64,000 nucleotides of DNA from Hyphomicrobiales bacterium (GTDB taxonomy: Bacteria > Pseudomonadota > Alphaproteobacteria > Rhizobiales > Rhizobiaceae): positions 62,001-126,000 of the forward strand of contig UBXM01000020.1 of assembly GCA_900469445.1 (NCBI GenBank), in the 5' to 3' direction. How positions within the stretch are numbered: position 1 is the stretch's first letter; every line of letters begins with the position of its first letter. Shown one piece after another: positions 53,518-62,342 of the stretch. The position numbers were made by a program, and so were the translations under genes. Under the pieces are notes generated by a model. The model did no database searches and was not told the origin of the DNA. It was given only the letters and a program-made list of their open reading frames with translations.

Positions 53518-55311
53518 TCACTGCTTCGGCGGTTCGGCTTTCTGCTGGTACAGACCCATCAGCTCCCCCTTGCCAATCACGTGGCCGGAAATGGCTGCAA
53601 GCAACGCATCCCGATCCGAGGTTGGCGGGATATCAATCACCGAATCGAGGGCGATCACCTGGAAATGGTAATGGTGTGCCTTATCACCGACGGGAGGCTT
53701 TGGTCCGAAATAGCCATGAGTGCCTGAGCTGTTGCGACCCTGAAGGACGCCTTCTGGCTCGACCAGTCGGAGTTGCTCCTGCAGACCCTCCGGCAGGCTG
53801 GTCACCGTGCCGGGAATATTCCAGGCAAGCCAATGAACGAATGGCTTGATCGGTGAGGAATCCGGATCCTCCATGATGATTACGTAGGATGCGGCGTCAG
53901 GGACTGCGTTCCAACGAATGGAAGGAGACACACCGTCGGCATATTCGCTGTGTTTCAGCGGAATGGAAGTGCCGGTGTCGAAGGCTTCCGACTGCACCGT
54001 GATTTTGCCCTGGCCATCGGTCTCAGGTCGATCAAGCGCCAGCGGGACACCGACACCCTTCTTTGCCTGGGCCTCCATGACGCTGGCAGGCGCATTCTTT
54101 GCGGACGCGGCTTTTTGCGCATCCCCGGAATAGGCAATCCGGTAGATCACGCCGTTTGCGTCGTCGGCCATGAGGAGCGAGCCGTCCTTGGCGATCGCCA
54201 GGCCAACCGGACGCGCGAAATGGTTTTTGCCGCCGTCGGTCAGGAAGCCGGTGAGGAACGGTTCAATCGTCTTGGGTTGACCATCTTCAAAGTGAACCCG
54301 AACGATCTCGTAGCCCGAGGCTGGGTTTCGATTCCATGAGCCGCGCATTGTGGCGAACGCATCGTCGGCATACTCGGCCGGGAACGATGATCCGGTATAG
54401 AATTTGAGCTGCATCGGTGCGGCGTGAGCCGTATAACCGATCACCATCGGCTCGCTCAGATCGCGCCATTGCTCTTTTGTCAGTCCGCCAACCGGGGTGG
54501 ACTGAGGGTAGATGTCCCCGGAACCGAAGACGTGCGGCCATCCGTATTGCTTACCCTGCTCAAGCCGATTGAGCTCCTCAGCCTGTACTTCATCGCCTAG
54601 CAGATCGATCCCGTGATCGAGACCCCAGAGTTCACCGCTCTGCGGTTGCCAGTCAAAGCCTATCGTGTTGCGTAAGCCAGACGCGAAGATGGTTCGGCTT
54701 TTCCCATCCGGCGTCGCTCGCAACACCGCGGCATTCTCGGCATTGCTTTCGTTGCATGCATTACAAGTCGATCCGACACTGATGTACAGCATCCCATCAG
54801 GACCGAAGGCCATGACCCGGTTTGGATGCTGGCCAGAGTCTGGAAGGTCCCCGATGATCATCTCGAGCGGACCAAGCGTACCATCACCCTTGATGTCGGC
54901 GACGAATACCTCTTTGACCGTTACAAGATACAGCTTGTTATCCTTGATCGCTAGGCCGTGAGCCTGAGCTCGCGCCGCCACCTGAACAGGGGCCGCGTCG
55001 GCTTTTCCGTCACCATCCTCATCCTTCAAAAGGAGAACGTCGCCCTCTTCGCGCCGGCTGACATAGACGTAGCCTTTGTCGGAGACGGCGAGGATGCGAC
55101 TATTTCCAAGTCCTTGGGCAAACGGCTCAACAGAAAAACCTTCAGGAAGCTTGAGCTGATCGATCCTATCGCTTGTTGGTGCAACTTTGTTCGGCTTGAA
55201 TATGTTCGTCGTGATCTGGACTTCGGTGCCGTCACCCTGCTGGGCGAACGCGACGCCGCACGACAGTACCGCTGCCGCGACAGATGCCGCGCGAACTAAA
55301 ATCTGGACCAT
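53518..55311 (-). CDS. PQQ-dependent sugar dehydrogenase-like propeller fused to PEBP domain
   Basis: A 597-residue secreted protein with two domains. After a signal peptide (residues 1-24) comes a sorbosone/PQQ-glucose-dehydrogenase-like beta-propeller to about 395, with SVGSTCNACNESNAENAAVLR, GLRNTIGFDWQPQSGELWGLDHG and FARPVGLAIAKDGSLLMADD-type repeats in part. From about 415 a YbhB/YbcL-type phosphatidylethanolamine-binding domain follows (YVIIMEDPDSS, FVHWLAWNIP, HGYFGPKPP, HHYHFQVIALD). GGAGG lies ahead of the ATG at 55311. An EcfG-like promoter starts 32 bases upstream. The fusion implies that a periplasmic oxidation and a small-ligand-binding function work together; the substrate is unknown. 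Confidence 0.88.
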   Translation of the reverse strand: MVQILVRAASVAAAVLSCGVAFAQQGDGTEVQITTNIFKPNKVAPTSDRIDQLKLPEGFSVEPFAQGLGNSRILAVSDKGYVYVSRREEGDVLLLKDEDGDGKADAAPVQVAARAQAHGLAIKDNKLYLVTVKEVFVADIKGDGTLGPLEMIIGDLPDSGQHPNRVMAFGPDGMLYISVGSTCNACNESNAENAAVLRATPDGKSRTIFASGLRNTIGFDWQPQSGELWGLDHGIDLLGDEVQAEELNRLEQGKQYGWPHVFGSGDIYPQSTPVGGLTKEQWRDLSEPMVIGYTAHAAPMQLKFYTGSSFPAEYADDAFATMRGSWNRNPASGYEIVRVHFEDGQPKTIEPFLTGFLTDGGKNHFARPVGLAIAKDGSLLMADDANGVIYRIAYSGDAQKAASAKNAPASVMEAQAKKGVGVPLALDRPETDGQGKITVQSEAFDTGTSIPLKHSEYADGVSPSIRWNAVPDAASYVIIMEDPDSSPIKPFVHWLAWNIPGTVTSLPEGLQEQLRLVEPEGVLQGRNSSGTHGYFGPKPPVGDKAHHYHFQVIALDSVIDIPPTSDRDALLAAISGHVIGKGELMGLYQQKAEPPKQ

Positions 55312-55342
55312 GTACGAAAACCCTCCACTTGGTTGGTCCCGC

Positions 55343-55367
55343 AACCATCAGGGAGTCGAATAGTTCC
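55343..55367 (-). promoter_or_regulatory. EcfG-type general-stress promoter for the 55.3-51.5 kb operon
   Basis: On the minus strand GGAAC (55367-55363) is followed after 16 bases by GGTT (55346-55343). This matches the alphaproteobacterial EcfG consensus GGAAC-N16/17-cGTT except for G in place of C. It lies 32 bases upstream of the PQQ/PEBP start. The remainder of the 55312-55963 gap shows no gene that I can support. Confidence 0.65.
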
Positions 55368-55963
55368 TTGACGACATGGATTAATCAGCTCACGGGAGCG
55401 ACACCAGTTCTACAGCGCCTCGGCTCAAGCGAGTGGAACTCAAGCTACCTGCTACCAAAGGTTGCCGCGCCCTCCCGACCGCAGCTCGAGCCCGAACAGT
55501 TACGAGAGGATTACGCATTAGCGTTTTCTAACGTCGCTTCGGCCTGTTCTGTGACAAATGTCGTCCTGTAGGTGATCAAAGTGGCGAAGTATTTCTGCTA
55601 TTTCAGCACGTATGTACACGGCGACCCGTGGTCGACATTCGGCATCCTGCGGCAATAATGGCCGATCATTTCATCAACTCTGCGTGCTTCTTCTTGCAGG
55701 CTGTACTGTTTAGGAAAATGCGGTCGCGCGAAAGGTGAGGTCTCGGACCGCTGGAGTGATCGAAAAGCGACGATTAGGCTCCAGAGGCCATTCGAGCCAC
55801 CGACCTGCTAGCAAAAACTTTCCAGTTGGCGGGAAACGCTCTCATCCCTTGATCCAGCGATCTCTCTTGCCCCTCGACCGTCCTGTAGCGCCGCCATTGC
55901 ATCCGAATGACGCAAGGGATACGTGTTCTCCGTCAAATCATTCCTTCCTCATTAGAGATATCC

Positions 55964-58900
55964 ATGACGACGCCCCCTCAACAGACGCCGACACGGCGAA
56001 GCCTAGGCCTAGACGCGCGGGTCGTTTTCGCTTTAGCCGGAGCGCTGGCATTTTTCGTCATCAGCGCTGCGGTGGCTTGGTACAATGTCCAGACCCTGCG
56101 TTCCAACAACGAACGGGTCGTTCACAGCCATGAGGTGATCGTCGCTCTCGCCGACCTTCTGTCCAACATCCAGGACGCTGAGACAGGGCAGCGCGGTTTT
56201 CTGCTGACAAACAGCGATCGCTATCTCGAGCCATACAACGTGGCAATCACCATTATTCCGAGACGGCTTGAGATGATCGCTGGCATGATCAGCGACAATG
56301 CGTCTCAGCAGCAACGTTTGTCCAACCTCAAATCGCGCGTCGAAGGAAAACTGTCCGAGCTTCGCGAGACAATCGATCTGCGAAGGTCTCAAAATGCCGA
56401 AGCGGCGCTCGCGGTGGTGAATTCCGATCGCGGCAAGGTCGAGATGGACGCTATTCGCTCGCAGTTGACGGCGATGCGGCAGGAGGAGACCCGCCTGCGC
56501 ACGCAACGCCTTGCGGAGATGGACAACGCCTATACGACCGCGTTCGCCAGCAGTATCCTTGCTGGTCTGCTCGGTATACTGCTGACCGTCGCTATCGGTG
56601 TGCTGATCCGTCAGGCGACACTGACGCGGAGGCGTCAGGATTGGCTGCAAACCGGAGAAGTGGGTTTGAATGCCGCGGTCGCCGGCGATCGGCGCACCGA
56701 GGAGCTGGGCGATAGCATTCTGCAATTCCTGGCGCGCTACACCGGCGCCGTCGCTGGCGCGATTTTCGTCAAGGGTGAGGACGATTTTCTGCGCGCCGCG
56801 ACCTATGGCGTTCCGGAAGGCGCCAACGTGCCGGAACGCTTCAGGTCGAAAGAAGGTCTACTTGGTCAGGCCGTGACGGAAGCAAAACCTATCCTTGTTG
56901 AAGGCGTGCCGGACGGGTATCTGACCTTCGGCTCGGCACTCGGACGTGACAAGCCGCGGCATTTGATGATCTCGCCGGGAAGTGTCGATGGCGCGGTCAA
57001 TTGCGTCATCGAACTCGGCTTCCTGCGTCCCGTCGACGGCTCGGCTCTGGCCCTTCTCGGACAGGCGTCGGCCTCGATCGCCACTGCCGTTCGCTCAGCG
57101 AAATATCGCAGCGACCTCCAAAATTTCCTCCGCGAAACTCAGCGACAGGCCGAGGAGCTTCAGGTTCAGGGCGAAGAACTCCGCGTTTCCAACGAGGAGC
57201 TTGAAGAGCAAGGCCGGGCTCTCAAGGAATCGCAGGCACGTCTCGAGCAGCAGCAGGTCGAGCTCGAACAAACGAACTCGCAGCTGGAAGAACAGGCGCA
57301 GCAGCTCGAAGGCCAGCGCGACGACCTCGAGAAGGTCAACGCGTCGGTGCAACTCAAGGCCCGCGAACTTGAACAGGCAAGCCAGTACAAGTCGGATTTC
57401 TTGGCCAACATGTCGCACGAGCTGCGCACACCGCTCAACTCTTCGCTCATCCTGGCCAAGCTACTTGCAGACAACCCGGACGAAAATCTCACAGCCGAAC
57501 AGGTGAAGTACGCACAGACAATCCAATCTTCCGGCAACGACCTTCTCAATCTGATCAACGATATTCTCGATCTGTCAAAGATCGAGGCAGGCCATGTCGA
57601 GATCCGGCCGGAGCCGGTCTCTCTCGACAGATTGGTCAGCGGTCTCAGGCAGCTCTTCGAGCCCTTAGCGAGCTCGAAAGGCCTCGGCTTTAAGATCGAC
57701 ATCGCGCCTGAGACGCCAGCCGTCATCGAGACAGATCCGCAACGTCTCGAACAGGTGCTCAAGAACCTTCTTTCGAACGCCTTCAAGTTCACCGAAAAGG
57801 GCAAGGTGACACTGACCTTGCGCAGCGCAGGCGATGGTCAACTCGCTTTAGCGGTGACCGATACCGGCATCGGCATCGCCGAGGATCAGCAGCGCAGCAT
57901 TTTCGAGGCCTTCCATCAGGCCGACAGTACGATCAGCCGCCGCTTCGGCGGAACCGGCCTCGGTCTTTCAATCTCCAGAGAGCTCATGCGCCTCCTCGGT
58001 GGAGCAATCCATCTGAACAGCCGGCACAACCACGGCAGTACGTTCACCATCGTCGTTCCGGTCTCCTATGATCCGTCCAGGGTGGCCTCCCGTGACATTC
58101 ACCCGTCGAACACGGTGACAGCCCCGCAATCCGTCGTCGAAGAGGTGCGGCCAATACAGCCGGTGCACCATCGGATCGTCGAGGACGATCGGGCAATGCC
58201 GAATGAGGGCAAACGCACTTTGCTGGTGATTGAGGACGATGAGACGTTTTCGGCGATCCTGCGTGACCTTGCACGCGAGATGGGCTTCCGGGCGCTCGTC
58301 GCGGGAACAGCCCATGACGCGCTGGACCTTGCCAAGCAGCACATGCCGAGCGCCATCGTTCTCGATATCGGGCTACCGGATCAATCAGGGCTTTCCGTCC
58401 TCGACAGGCTGAAGACCGACGTCCGGACCCGCCATATCCCGATTCATATCGTGTCTGCAGACGACTATTCCGAGACCGCGCTTTCACTGGGCGCCGTCGG
58501 TTACATGATGAAGCCGGTGCGGCGCGAACAGCTCGTCGAAGTCCTTAAGAGATTGGAAGCTAAGCTTTCGCAGGGCGTCCGCCGCGTTCTGATCGTCGAG
58601 GACAACGAGGTCCAGCGCGAGGCCGTCATGAAATTGCTGACCTCGCATGACGTCGAAACCGTCAGCGCCGGTACGGCCGCCGAATGTCTGGCGCTTTTGA
58701 AAGAACAGACCTTCGACTGCATGGTGCTTGACCTGACCCTGCCCGACGCGTCAGGCTACTCGCTTCTCGAAACAATCAGCGGTGACAACAGCCATTCGTT
58801 CCCGCCGGTAATTATATATACGGGCAGAGTTCTGTCGGCGGACGAAGAGCAGCGTCTGCGTCGCTATTCGAAATCCATCATCATCAAGGGCGCCAAGTCG

Positions 58901-59398
58901 CCGGAACGCCTGCTCGACGAGGTGTCTCTCTTCCTGCACCAGGTGGTTTCCGACCTGCCGGATGAACAGCAGAAGATGATCCGCAAGGCCCGCAACCGCG
59001 ACGCGTTGCTGGAGGATCGCAGGATCCTGATCGTCGAAGACGATGTCCGCAACGTCTACGCGCTGACCAATATTCTGGAACCTCGCGGAGCCGTCATCGA
59101 GATTGCCCGCAACGGCCAGGAAGCGCTCGACAAGCTCAGCCAAGCCCAAAACGATGCGACCAAGGCGATCGACCTCGTCCTGATGGACGTGATGATGCCC
59201 GTGATGGACGGGCTGACCGCGACACGCACTATCCGGAGAAACCCCGACTGGAAGAAGCTGCCCATCATCACGTTGACGGCCAAGGCCATGCCCGACGACC
59301 AGCAGCGCTGCATCGAGGCCGGCGCCAACGACTATATGGCCAAGCCTCTCGACGTCGAAAAACTGTTGTCGCTCGTGCGCGTATGGATGCCCCGGTGA
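55964..59398 (+). CDS. Hybrid histidine kinase: CHASE3-GAF-coiled coil-HK-three receivers
   Basis: A 1144-residue membrane sensor. Order: membrane helix ~20-42, CHASE3 sensor ~45-180 (AETGQRGFLLTNSDRYL), second helix ~188-212, GAF ~230-375, long Glu/Gln-rich coiled coil ~385-475, HisKA with H485 in NMSHELRTPLNSS, HATPase with N/G boxes, then receivers with phosphoacceptors D801, D923 and D1075. The second receiver lacks a normal end (IIKGAKSPERL). An ATG at 55964 is preferred over 55907, as it starts right before the signal anchor. It overlaps the following CheR gene by 16 bases. Confidence 0.9.
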   Translation: MTTPPQQTPTRRSLGLDARVVFALAGALAFFVISAAVAWYNVQTLRSNNERVVHSHEVIVALADLLSNIQDAETGQRGFLLTNSDRYLEPYNVAITIIPRRLEMIAGMISDNASQQQRLSNLKSRVEGKLSELRETIDLRRSQNAEAALAVVNSDRGKVEMDAIRSQLTAMRQEETRLRTQRLAEMDNAYTTAFASSILAGLLGILLTVAIGVLIRQATLTRRRQDWLQTGEVGLNAAVAGDRRTEELGDSILQFLARYTGAVAGAIFVKGEDDFLRAATYGVPEGANVPERFRSKEGLLGQAVTEAKPILVEGVPDGYLTFGSALGRDKPRHLMISPGSVDGAVNCVIELGFLRPVDGSALALLGQASASIATAVRSAKYRSDLQNFLRETQRQAEELQVQGEELRVSNEELEEQGRALKESQARLEQQQVELEQTNSQLEEQAQQLEGQRDDLEKVNASVQLKARELEQASQYKSDFLANMSHELRTPLNSSLILAKLLADNPDENLTAEQVKYAQTIQSSGNDLLNLINDILDLSKIEAGHVEIRPEPVSLDRLVSGLRQLFEPLASSKGLGFKIDIAPETPAVIETDPQRLEQVLKNLLSNAFKFTEKGKVTLTLRSAGDGQLALAVTDTGIGIAEDQQRSIFEAFHQADSTISRRFGGTGLGLSISRELMRLLGGAIHLNSRHNHGSTFTIVVPVSYDPSRVASRDIHPSNTVTAPQSVVEEVRPIQPVHHRIVEDDRAMPNEGKRTLLVIEDDETFSAILRDLAREMGFRALVAGTAHDALDLAKQHMPSAIVLDIGLPDQSGLSVLDRLKTDVRTRHIPIHIVSADDYSETALSLGAVGYMMKPVRREQLVEVLKRLEAKLSQGVRRVLIVEDNEVQREAVMKLLTSHDVETVSAGTAAECLALLKEQTFDCMVLDLTLPDASGYSLLETISGDNSHSFPPVIIYTGRVLSADEEQRLRRYSKSIIIKGAKSPERLLDEVSLFLHQVVSDLPDEQQKMIRKARNRDALLEDRRILIVEDDVRNVYALTNILEPRGAVIEIARNGQEALDKLSQAQNDATKAIDLVLMDVMMPVMDGLTATRTIRRNPDWKKLPIITLTAKAMPDDQQRCIEAGANDYMAKPLDVEKLLSLVRVWMPR

Positions 59399-60228
59399 TC
59401 GAAACATTCGAGAAGGTCGAGGACATTGAGATCCGGCTTCTGCTGGAGGCGCTTTATGTGCGTTATCACTACGATTTCCGCAACTACGCGATGGGGTCGG
59501 TCAAACGCAGGTTGCGGCAGGCCTGCGAGCAGATGGGTTTTGCCACGATCTCCGCGCTCCAGGAAAAAATTTTGCATGACGAGACCATGCTGCCGCGGCT
59601 GCTCGGGTATCTCACGGTCCAGGTGAGCGAGATGTTCAGAGATCCGAGCTATTTCCGCGCGATCCGCGAAAAGGTCGTCCCGCATTTGAAGACTTACTCT
59701 TCCCTCAAGATCTGGATCGCGGGCTGCAGCTGCGGCGAGGAAGTCTATTCCCTGGCAATCCTGTTTCGCGAAGAAGGTTTGGAGGATCGAACGATCTTCT
59801 ATGCCACCGATATCAATCAGGATGCATTGCAGGCAGCAGAAGCCGGCGTCTATAACCTCGACCGAGTCCAGCTGTTTACCGAAAATCATCGCAAGTCAGG
59901 TGGCAGATCCTCCCTTTCCGATTATTACAAGGCCGGGTACGGCCGGGTTTCTTTCGACCGGTCATTGCGCGAGCGTGTCGTGTTTTCGGACCACAGCCTC
60001 GTGACTGATGCGGTCTTCGGCGAGATGCAACTGATTTCATGCCGCAACGTGATGATCTATTTCGACCGGACCCTGCAGGATCGCGCCGTCGGCCTTTTCA
60101 AGGACTCGCTGGCGCGGAAGGGATTTCTAGGTATCGGAGCAAAGGAGAACCTACGCTTTTCCGCGCATGCAGACGGCTTCAAGGAATTCGTCCGCGAGGA
60201 AAAAATCTATCAAAGGGTCGGGCTATGA
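59383..60228 (+). CDS. CheR-type protein glutamate methyltransferase
   Basis: A 281-residue CheR-family SAM-dependent methyltransferase. Seen: SAM motif IWIAGCSCGEEVYSLAIL, the acidic ATDINQDAL, and RNVMIYFDRTLQD typical of the family. It would methylate glutamates on a sensor protein. No chemoreceptor gene is present, so the target may be the coiled coil or another part of the adjacent kinase. Start ATG 59383 overlaps the kinase end by 16 bases; a GTG at 59395 with a GTGA overlap is an alternative. Its own stop overlaps the CheB start by ATGA. Confidence 0.92.
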   Translation: MDAPVIETFEKVEDIEIRLLLEALYVRYHYDFRNYAMGSVKRRLRQACEQMGFATISALQEKILHDETMLPRLLGYLTVQVSEMFRDPSYFRAIREKVVPHLKTYSSLKIWIAGCSCGEEVYSLAILFREEGLEDRTIFYATDINQDALQAAEAGVYNLDRVQLFTENHRKSGGRSSLSDYYKAGYGRVSFDRSLRERVVFSDHSLVTDAVFGEMQLISCRNVMIYFDRTLQDRAVGLFKDSLARKGFLGIGAKENLRFSAHADGFKEFVREEKIYQRVGL

Positions 60229-60794
60229 CGGCGTACCGACCCAGGGCGATCGTAATCGGAGCTTCCGCCGGCGCATTGGAGGCGCTTACCGTTATCCTGC
60301 CATCGCTGCCAAGTGATTTTCGCGCCCCGATCATCATCGTCGTGCATATCCCGTCCGACAAGCGGAGCGTGCTCGCGGAACTGTTCCGAGCGAAATGCAG
60401 GATCCAGGTCATCGACGTGGAAGACAAGGAGCCGCTCAAGCCGGCCACCGCTTATTTTGCGCCGCCGGATTATCATCTGCTCGTTGAAGACACGGAAACC
60501 CTGGGTCTGACCTATGAAGAACCTGTTCTGTTTTCCAGGCCTTCAATCGACGTCCTGTTCGAGAGTGCCGCCGACGTTTACGGTTCTGATGTCACTGCCA
60601 TATTGCTGACTGGTGCCAATCAGGATGGCGCGAAAGGCCTTGTCGCCGTAGCCGAAGCGGGCGGACAGGTGATCGTACAGGACCCCGAGACGGCCTTCGC
60701 TGCCGCGATGCCGGAAGCTGGTCTGAGACTTTGCCCGAACGCTGAGGTTCTTTCGCTGGACGGCATATGCGCATATTTGAGGAGGATTGGCTGA
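60225..60794 (+). CDS. Stand-alone CheB-type methylesterase
   Basis: A 189-residue CheB catalytic domain without the usual receiver. The triad is visible: S14 in GASAGA, H41 in VVHIPS, D134 in TGANQDGAKG. It removes methyl groups added by CheR or deamidates. Lacking a receiver, its activity must be controlled by partner proteins, perhaps one of the four receivers encoded around it. The ATG overlaps the CheR stop, and its TGA is directly followed by the ATG of the next gene. Confidence 0.92.
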   Translation: MTAYRPRAIVIGASAGALEALTVILPSLPSDFRAPIIIVVHIPSDKRSVLAELFRAKCRIQVIDVEDKEPLKPATAYFAPPDYHLLVEDTETLGLTYEEPVLFSRPSIDVLFESAADVYGSDVTAILLTGANQDGAKGLVAVAEAGGQVIVQDPETAFAAAMPEAGLRLCPNAEVLSLDGICAYLRRIG

Positions 60795-62342
60795 ATGGGC
60801 CAAGTATCGTTTCTTTTGGTCGACGATCTCGAAGAAAATCTCATTTCTCTCGAAGCACTGTTGCGACGCGAGGGTCTGACGATTTTGAAGGCGCGGTCGG
60901 GAGATCACGCTCTCGAACTTCTTCTGGAGCATGACGTCGCGCTCGCTCTGATCGACGTACAGATGCCCGGACTGAACGGTTTCGAGCTTGCCGAACTAAT
61001 GCGCGGCAATGAACGAACAAGGCGCGTGCCGATCATCTTCGTGACGGCCGGGAACACCACCGATAGTCGTTGGCGGTTCCGCGGTTATGAGGCCGGGGCT
61101 GTCGATTTCATTCAGAAGCCGATCGAGCCGGACGTCTTGCGTAGCAAGGCGGACGTATTCTTCGAGCTTTATTGCCAGCGCCAACAGATTGCAGCGCAAC
61201 GAGACGAATTGCAGAACCATGCCGAAGCGCTAAAGGATGCAGATCGCCGCAAAGACGAGTTCCTAGCTACCCTCGCCCATGAACTGCGCACGCCATTGGC
61301 ACCCCTTCGCAATGGTCTCGATCTTCTTCAGCGCAATCCGAACGGGGAGAAAGCGGGCGATATACGCAGCATGATGGATCGGCAACTGGTCCACCTTGTC
61401 CGGCTGATCGATGACCTCCTAGATGTCTCGCGCGTCAGCCAGGGGAAAATCGAGCTGAAGAAGACGCCCGTCCGCATTGACGAAATCGTCAGATCGGCGA
61501 CGGAGGCAAGCCGCCCGCTGATGGACGGCGCAGGCCACCGGCTAGAGATCGAGATGTTGGAAAATCCGCTCTGGGTCGACGGTGACGAGGTCCGCTTGTC
61601 GCAAGCGGTGTCAAACCTCCTCAACAACGCCGCAAAATATACGCCCGCGGGCGGGCGTATCACACTTGGCGTGCGTGCTGAAGCCCAGCGCGTTGTCATA
61701 TCGGTAACCGATACGGGCATTGGCATACCCGACAACATGCAGGCAAACGTTTTTCAGCTGTTCACCCAGATCGACGACCACCTGCAACGTTCGCAAGGCG
61801 GTCTGGGCATCGGGCTTGCCCTTGTTCGCCAGCTTGTTGAATTGCATGGCGGAGCGGTGAGTGCTTACAGCGCGGGGCCCGGGACCGGAAGTCGATTCAC
61901 GATAAAGCTTCCGCTGGTGTCCGCCCCGGCGCCGACGCGCGCGCCGGACCAATCTAAAAGACCCGTCCCTACCTTTCGGCCGCTCAAGGTTCTAGTCGTC
62001 GATGACAACCCGATCATCGCCGACACGCTTGGAATGATGCTGGAGGATATCGGCCACAAATTCGAGGCTGTCCATGATGGGCGCGAGGCGCTGGACGTCG
62101 CTAAGCATTACCATCCGGATGTTATTCTTCTCGACATTGGCCTTCCGGGGATGAATGGATATGAGGTGTGCAAGGCCTTTCGCAGCGATGCAGAATTCCA
62201 GGAGACCCCAATTATTGCGCAGACCGGCTGGGGGCAGGATCGCGACAAGGAGCTGGCGACGGAGGCAGGTTTCGATTTTCATCTGACGAAGCCTGTTCCA
62301 CTCGAACAGCTACAGAAGGTATTCGCGACGCTTTCATCTTAA
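60795..62342 (+). CDS. REC-histidine kinase-REC hybrid protein
   Basis: A 515-residue soluble hybrid kinase. An N-terminal receiver has D54 (LIDVQMPG), a helical linker follows, then HisKA with H162 (LAHELRTPL), HATPase (NLLNNAAKY, DTGIGIP, GGLGIGLALV), and a C-terminal receiver with D447 (LLDIGLPG). No membrane helix. It could take phosphate from the upstream CHASE3 kinase through its first receiver and relay it. It starts immediately after the CheB stop, so the four genes form one coupled operon. No output response regulator or HPt is found in the window. Confidence 0.92.
   Translation: MGQVSFLLVDDLEENLISLEALLRREGLTILKARSGDHALELLLEHDVALALIDVQMPGLNGFELAELMRGNERTRRVPIIFVTAGNTTDSRWRFRGYEAGAVDFIQKPIEPDVLRSKADVFFELYCQRQQIAAQRDELQNHAEALKDADRRKDEFLATLAHELRTPLAPLRNGLDLLQRNPNGEKAGDIRSMMDRQLVHLVRLIDDLLDVSRVSQGKIELKKTPVRIDEIVRSATEASRPLMDGAGHRLEIEMLENPLWVDGDEVRLSQAVSNLLNNAAKYTPAGGRITLGVRAEAQRVVISVTDTGIGIPDNMQANVFQLFTQIDDHLQRSQGGLGIGLALVRQLVELHGGAVSAYSAGPGTGSRFTIKLPLVSAPAPTRAPDQSKRPVPTFRPLKVLVVDDNPIIADTLGMMLEDIGHKFEAVHDGREALDVAKHYHPDVILLDIGLPGMNGYEVCKAFRSDAEFQETPIIAQTGWGQDRDKELATEAGFDFHLTKPVPLEQLQKVFATLSS

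Follow-up and report, generated by a model that had tools for sequence, protein, structure and literature searches.

An alphaproteobacterial operon of the CfcA/RsbK type in which the kinase S-helix is a candidate substrate of the adjoining CheR and CheB

A hybrid kinase with its own putative adaptation enzymes

In a 64,000-nucleotide stretch of DNA from a Hyphomicrobiales bacterium (contig UBXM01000020.1, positions 62,001 to 126,000; here, the window), a list of open reading frames (ORFs) and a Pfam scan delimit an operon at positions 55964-62342 of the plus strand. Its four coupled genes encode a hybrid kinase, a CheR methyltransferase, a CheB methylesterase lacking its receiver, and a second kinase of receiver-histidine kinase-receiver layout (REC-HK-REC) (Table 1). 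We propose, with a probability of about 0.62, that this operon encodes a sensor of the CfcA/RsbK type supplied with its own adaptation enzymes, and that the long S-helix of the first kinase is the substrate of CheR and CheB. The coil had been suggested as the methylated element in an earlier sequence-only reading of the same DNA; it now gains comparative support, short of proof, from the conservation of the helix, from a helix motif linked to CheR, from genomes that carry the kinase-CheR pair and no match to a methyl-accepting chemotaxis protein (MCP), and from the published precedent of RsbK.

The gene overlaps of 16, 4 and 0 nucleotides described in that reading are exact by the ORF coordinates, the Pfam scan bears out the domain make-up it gave for all four proteins, and its receiver aspartates (D801, D923 and D1075 in gene 1, in the numbering of the 1144-residue protein; D54 and D447 in gene 4) are correct. 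It had also called the system receptor-less, which holds for the operon, where the Pfam scan reported no MCP, CheW, CheA, HPt or output domain among the four proteins, and fails for the genome, which has 26 MCPsignal matches elsewhere. The four proteins thus lack the MCP, CheA and CheW of a conventional chemosensory operon. The operon has the order of the CfcA/BmsA operons, in which cheR, cheB and a receiver or hybrid-kinase gene come after a CHASE3-GAF hybrid kinase, and also the arrangement of the RsbK type, a coil (S-helix) ahead of the H-box together with an adjoining gene of the CheR family. No RsbY/sigma-B output gene is present in the four-gene operon, the rest of the genome not having been searched for one.

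Linkage of kinase, CheR and CheB among relatives

Relatives were collected from CheR alone, which confirmed 105 loci in named genomes, the best 80 of which were retained (the CheR-retrieved set). Kinase, CheR and CheB stand in this order in 80 of 80 loci, and therefore the arrangement is not due to chance. The kinase and CheR genes usually overlap (by about 16 nucleotides in 42 of the 70 loci listed), the widest gap between them being about 450 nucleotides (L136). These loci come mainly from Rhizobiales, with others from Sphingomonadales, Acetobacteraceae and Caulobacterales, one Halopseudomonas and one metagenome-assembled genome (MAG) of Pseudomonas. Within the genus the operon's CheR is patchy: of the 36 genomes searched, the own one among them, 13 have it at an identity of at least 76%, as against none of the 24 searched in the order's other genera. 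Weaker CheR matches, with about 30-35% identity, lie mostly within long frames that are CheB-CheR fusions.

The N-terminal half of the kinase was used as a second query (E<=1e-60) against 398 genomes of the phylum, giving 44 places in 41 genomes, own genome included (the phylum set). CheR is present in the locus at 41 of the 43 other places, showing that this kinase type is almost always CheR-linked, and CheB is present at 38 of the 43. Loci with the gene order of the cfc operon were recovered in Pseudomonadota, the non-alphaproteobacterial kinases being 40-49% identical over the compared part; the first gene after CheB encodes only 363-409 residues in 25 of 41 loci, and a few loci have an extra kinase inserted between the operon genes (e.g., L241, L245, L248 and L250). 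Three loci (L226, L238 and L249) combine kinase and CheR with no CheB match and no second-kinase match above 80 bits, and one (L247) has CheB with no CheR found. In a census of the class, CHASE3 was found in 42 of 240 genomes. The S-helix used alone as query matched 5 of 289 class genomes, a search made insensitive by the low complexity of the coil.

Conservation of the S-helix and a motif linked to CheR

To the 80 CheR-retrieved kinases we added that of the window, giving 81 rows; four were dropped as short (L073, L092, L115 and L131) and rows at least 90% identical to a retained one were removed, leaving 60 kinases with a mean pairwise identity of 66%. The loci had been picked by CheR and not by the kinase. 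Residues 392-444 have the lowest entropy of any 53-residue window of the kinase (0.276 bits), compared with 0.288 bits for the best window of HisKA, 1.57 for CHASE3 and 1.48 for GAF. Averaged by heptad position along the helix, the majority residue has a frequency of 0.97 at both e and g, 0.94 at c, 0.84 at b and 0.83 at f.

The helix carries the motif EELxxxNEEL, which in its strict form is found in 79 of the 81 rows, the two misses (L092 and L131) being truncated before the helix. The controls were 20 long frames (L151-L170; 1203-2180 residues) whose homology to the kinase extends from GAF through the receivers; the sequence retrieved around each of them contains neither a CheR nor a CheB match. 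Five of them lie on short contigs, so that their neighbourhood is only partly visible (L153, L159, L161, L165 and L167), and the truncated L150 was excluded. The strict motif is present in 36 of 41 phylum rows and in 0 of the 20 CheR-less rows, and a relaxed form, EELxxxN[ED]xL, in 41 of 41 and 3 of 20. In the CheR-linked kinases the relaxed motif precedes the catalytic His by 53, 60, 74, 81, 88 or 95 residues, always in one heptad phase; the three relaxed CheR-less matches share this phase, and continuity of the coil would require heptad-wise shifts anyway. A Fisher test on the kinase ORFs of the loci (114/4/91/54) is unfair, the loci having been chosen by CheR or kinase, and is not relied on.

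Single positions were compared among nonredundant rows of the three sets (58 CheR-retrieved, 35 phylum and 19 CheR-less). The pairs E397/E398, E404/E405 and E411/E412 hardly vary in the CheR-retrieved (56-58 of 58) and phylum (30-32 of 35) rows. All 19 CheR-less rows have Glu at 398 and 405; Glu stands at 411 in 11 of 18, positions 397 and 404 are mixed, and none has Glu at 412. Pairs of Glu at heptad spacing on a coiled coil are the layout of the MCPs. From the alignment, we propose that the pairs 397/398, 404/405 and 411/412, spaced by one heptad, are the best candidate methylation sites.

The same motif was found in proteins of another architecture. It is present, in the strict form, in 15 of 15 distinct CheB-CheR fusion frames (16 rows, two of which are the same protein) and in 0 of 12 frames with CheR and no CheB; three of these 12 are counterparts of the operon's CheR from other genomes, and the remaining nine are different CheR proteins. 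Like the operon, these fusions combine CheB, CheR and an EELxxxNEEL coil; they differ in being single polypeptides, with a CheR only about 30-35% identical. Around 56 HisKA places of the own genome lie 54 distinct kinase ORFs, of which 52 lack the motif. The two carriers are the kinase of the window and a CheB-CheR-kinase fusion (C51:529052-531763, L172, a 1443-residue frame); since the motif had been defined on the window kinase itself, the fusion alone counts as an independent match. A kinase domain is seen in this fusion copy only, the other fusion loci ending short. In a search for a Gram-positive RsbK homologue, three plasmid CheR matches were examined: the Priestia locus (L286) has CheR and a CheB with a receiver and no HisKA or HATPase match, Acetoanaerobium (L288) has CheR only, and in Kovacikia (L287) a kinase lies about 3 kb from CheR and lacks the motif.

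Genomes without chemoreceptor matches

MCPsignal is absent at E<=1e-5 from 8 of 80 genomes having the kinase-CheR pair (G749 and those of L092, L095, L109, L111, L133, L138 and L139), in which CheR therefore needs another substrate. Brucella (former Ochrobactrum) pituitosa and pseudogrignonensis are among them. G749 is listed as 100% complete, its locus (L238) being one of those with no CheB match; L092, L095 and L109 come from MAGs, in which a missing MCP could reflect incompleteness. The helix motif is present in 7 of the 8 and is unseen in the truncated L092. Outside the operon, the own genome encodes three further domains of CheR and three of CheB, including two CheR/CheB pairs (C13 and C70) near MCPs, whose CheB frames of 441 and 453 residues leave room for a receiver.

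Evidence weighing against the proposal

Several observations weigh against the S-helix as the methylated element. Other parts of the kinase are better conserved than the S-helix in the phylum set (1.21 bits, compared with 0.71 for HisKA, 1.13 for HATPase and 1.06 for the third receiver), its alignment there being blurred by heptad shifts. The CheR-less kinases have the start of the helix in common with the others, and their S-helix is also fairly conserved (0.64 bits; GAF 1.25), and conservation alone therefore cannot single out CheR; it may instead reflect dimerisation or docking of a receiver. Helix length fails to discriminate as well: the distance from residue 398 to the catalytic His is 87 residues in the CheR-retrieved set, and among the 20 CheR-less helices 14 are shorter by 21 residues and one by 14, but five are longer by 7. 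As for the motif, 5 of 41 phylum rows carry the relaxed form only, and one kinase (L231) has the strict form with no CheR in its locus, a second copy in the same genome (L236) being CheR-linked. Because the CheR-less controls belong mostly to one clade, the association between motif and CheR may be one of ancestry. Finally, P. putida mutants in the cfc genes other than that of the kinase retained the crinkle phenotype (unpublished, quoted in a passage of PMC4951495).

Features of the four genes and their surroundings

The frame of gene 1 starts at an ATG at 55964, a longer ATG frame beginning at 55907, and its CHASE3 domain is flanked by hydrophobic segments near residues 14-40 and 191-220. 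The three receiver aspartates are each invariant among the 60 nonredundant kinases. In gene 2 the motifs FRD (R86), GEE (119-120), ATDIN (D143) and SCRNVxIYF are conserved; FRD, GEE, ATDIN and CRNV are invariant across the 81-row alignment, and we take them to serve the S-adenosylmethionine (SAM) site as in other CheR proteins; the best match among solved structures is the CheR chain 5ftw (1.5e-27). Residues S14, H41 and D134 of gene 3 align with the Ser-His-Asp triad of solved CheB and are invariant in 81 rows, and are presumably catalytic (best structure match, CheB chain 3sft, 2.8e-27). The N-terminal receiver of classical CheB was not found in gene 3, in which Pfam reports CheB_methylest only.

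Gene 4 was found in 75 of the 80 CheR-retrieved loci, as REC-HisKA-HATPase-REC in 34, as REC-HisKA-HATPase in 17, as a receiver protein without HisKA in 22 and unclassified in two. Scanning of 20 of the 22 proteins without HisKA identified all 20 as HWE kinases (e.g., L103:9423-10478). The catalytic module of gene 4 is thus swapped at a fixed operon position, its N-terminal receiver being constant.

Table 1. Coordinates of the operon genes and of the kinase domains in the window
Feature	Position	Strand	Basis or remark
Gene 1, CHASE3-GAF-S-helix-HisKA-HATPase-REC-REC-REC hybrid kinase, CfcA/BmsA type	55964..59398	+	1144 residues; ORF and Pfam
CHASE3 sensor domain, residues 49-184	56108..56515	+	Pfam, 4e-41
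GAF domain, residues 245-376	56696..57091	+	Pfam GAF_2, 8e-9
S-helix core, residues 393-451, E/Q-rich heptad coil, proposed CheR/CheB substrate	57140..57316	+	Alignment
EELxxxNEEL motif, residues 404-413	57173..57202	+	Alignment, motif counts
HisKA, residues 476-543	57389..57592	+	Pfam
Phospho-acceptor H485, catalytic His	57416-57418	+	Within HisKA
HATPase_c, residues 590-700	57731..58063	+	Pfam
Three receivers, phospho-acceptors D801, D923, D1075	58289..59383	+	Pfam Response_reg stretches
Gene 2, CheR methyltransferase (CheR_N and CheR), 281 residues	59383..60228	+	ORF and Pfam
Gene 3, CheB methylesterase domain alone (CheB_methylest), 189 residues	60225..60794	+	ORF and Pfam
Gene 4, REC-HisKA-HATPase-REC hybrid kinase, 515 residues, H162, D54, D447	60795..62342	+	ORF and Pfam

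Downstream of the operon, the scan covered 28 proteins, namely 21 of 33 candidate fifth genes and 7 others; of the families shown, none recurs in more than two of them. Six of the 20 downstream proteins scanned in the phylum set (25 listed) are receivers and three match BLUF; genes of 142 residues after gene 4 in L240, L242 and L243 are likely carriers of this blue-light domain. The downstream proteins that were scanned revealed no conserved output gene. Upstream and divergent, at 53518-55344 on the minus strand, lies a gene that resembles a sorbosone dehydrogenase with a PEBP-like C-terminal part, as judged by eye from its translation.

Within 400 nucleotides upstream of the kinase, an EcfG-like sequence (GGAAC-N16-CGTT) was observed in L064, L065, L066, L068, L069, L070, L072 and L074, eight of the 11 named relatives that are closest (L064-L074), with differing spacers, and none was observed at the window; the sequence resembles the EcfG consensus of general-stress promoters. 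Across the loci a motif of this type occurs within 400 nucleotides upstream in 12 of 76 (0.9 expected from mononucleotide shuffles), but also in 15 of 80 CheR-coding control sequences. A stricter form within 300 nucleotides occurs in 4 of 76, versus 0.58 expected from the locus-wide density and none for three control patterns.

Relation to published systems

The cfcABCDE operon of Pseudomonas putida KT2440 encodes the kinase CfcA (PP_3761), CfcB and CfcC corresponding to CheR and CheB, and CfcD with a receiver (PMC4951495); CfcA is termed a CHASE3/GAF hybrid kinase (PMC6849547). CfcA and its H496 are required for the diguanylate cyclase CfcR, with phenotypes related to cyclic di-GMP (PMC4951495). 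In P. brassicacearum, gene 3082, called an orthologue of bmsA, stands with CheR, CheB and a hybrid kinase in genes 3082-3079, and BmsA modulates biofilm formation and motility according to a title in the reference list (PMC8175716). The cfcABCDE/bmsA locus thus matches the operon of the window in having a CHASE3/GAF hybrid kinase together with CheR, CheB and one more gene for a receiver protein or hybrid kinase; the partner of the P. putida system, CfcR, is a GGDEF/EAL protein, and P. putida is compared here by description. Among the open-access papers listed in our searches, none reported CheR or CheB acting on CfcA or a near relative.

The closest precedent for the proposed modification comes from Bacillus cereus, where the hybrid kinase RsbK is methylated by RsbM, an enzyme of the CheR kind; an abstract citing earlier work places the modification on the S-helix, and in vitro labelling of RsbK and of D827 variants with 14C-SAM is shown (PMC4574943). 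Without RsbM, or without the receiver, sigma-B is constitutively high; RsbM lacks a cognate esterase, the RsbK receiver acts as an inhibitor and not as a relay, and 127 RsbK-like kinases in 10 phyla are cited (PMC4574943). The genomic association of RsbK with CheR was found by de Been and colleagues (PMC12848376). The RsbK-RsbM-RsbY system resembles that of the window in its CHASE3...GAF-S-helix-HK-REC kinase and in the operon with a CheR-like methyltransferase; RsbK, compared by description only, has HAMP and one receiver, whereas the window kinase has three. RsbM acts without a cognate CheB on an output made of the RsbY phosphatase and sigma-B, whereas the window operon has CheB and a second kinase, and the three loci that pair the kinase with CheR and no CheB match (L226, L238 and L249) are closer to RsbK-RsbM in this respect.

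Both the operon type (cfcABCDE/bmsA of Pseudomonas) and the methylation of an S-helix by a CheR-like enzyme (RsbK/RsbM) were therefore already known, and the proposal made here is partly anticipated in print. In 2011, de Been et al. reportedly also proposed that the helix preceding the H-box is methylated and demethylated. The system of the window, unlike that of RsbK, has a CheB, and it offers a precise set of candidate sites. With the MCP adaptation system it shares the CheR/CheB pair, the proposed substrate being a histidine kinase and not an MCP.

Alternative explanations

CheR and CheB could impose a one-way setting rather than adaptation, methylation locking a receiver onto the kinase and CheB acting as a constitutive counterweight or as a Gln deamidase. 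Such locking has been proposed for RsbK, whose RsbM is a negative regulator acting jointly with the receiver (PMC4574943), the operon's CheB has no receiver for feedback, and the S-helix holds many invariant Gln; we nevertheless consider this unlikely, given that CheB adjoins CheR in 80 of 80 CheR-retrieved loci, which favours turnover, and that RsbM lacks such an esterase.

It is distinctly improbable, in our estimate, that the two enzymes act on a different partner, be it gene 4, a response regulator or some unlinked protein, the S-helix being kept for dimerisation, docking or signalling. CheR is reported to methylate the response regulator PhoP in Salmonella (PMC8546571), gene 4 is usually linked, and the helix is conserved in CheR-less kinases too. 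Relatives, however, differ in the kinase class and the number of receivers of gene 4, the motif is common to CheB-CheR fusions of different architecture, and L226, L238 and L249 keep kinase and CheR with no second-kinase match.

Chemotaxis systems in some bacteria share enzymes, and with 26 MCPsignal matches in the own genome and at least one in 72 of the 80 kinase-CheR genomes, the operon CheR and CheB might act on conventional chemoreceptors encoded elsewhere, the kinase being merely co-regulated. We consider this very unlikely in view of the eight kinase-CheR genomes having no MCP match, of the two other CheR/CheB pairs that the own genome has near its MCPs, and of the statement that a chemotaxis role of the CheR and CheB of the P. 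putida cfc operon has been excluded (in a passage of PMC4951495, citing Garcia-Fontana 2013).

A model for the operon and its significance

If the S-helix is the substrate, CHASE3 and GAF would sense a signal and set the activity of the kinase through the long helix beside the H-box. CheR would methylate Glu residues of the S-helix, and the receiver-less CheB would demethylate or deamidate Glu/Gln there, so that methylation would shift the gain of the kinase as it does in chemoreceptors. Reversible adaptation is plausible, though unproven, because CheB is present, unlike in RsbK/RsbM.

The phosphate of H485 would pass to the receivers of the kinase itself and also to that at the N-terminus of gene 4, whose constancy among relatives makes it look like an input from gene 1; D54 is accordingly the predicted favoured target outside the kinase. 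Gene 4 would then be a receiver-controlled second kinase, with the final output regulator encoded elsewhere. The sequence-only reading had phosphate passing through up to five receivers; such a relay is possible but not favoured, because the RsbK receiver inhibits and because gene 4 varies in kinase class and in its second receiver. D447 in particular would be no general relay step, since among relatives gene 4 changes kinase class or lacks the C-terminal receiver.

In conclusion, the comparison narrows the candidate target to three neighbouring Glu pairs on one helix, and the genomes with a kinase-CheR pair and no MCP match are natural test cases. More tentatively, at somewhat less than even odds, the heptad EEL...NEEL code may mark histidine kinases that are CheR substrates, whether CheR and CheB are separate or fused to the kinase, and reversible methylation of the chemoreceptor kind would then be a widespread layer of control in hybrid histidine kinases, even where chemoreceptors are missing. 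If the kinase is indeed the substrate, methylation-based sensory adaptation would not be exclusive to chemoreceptors.

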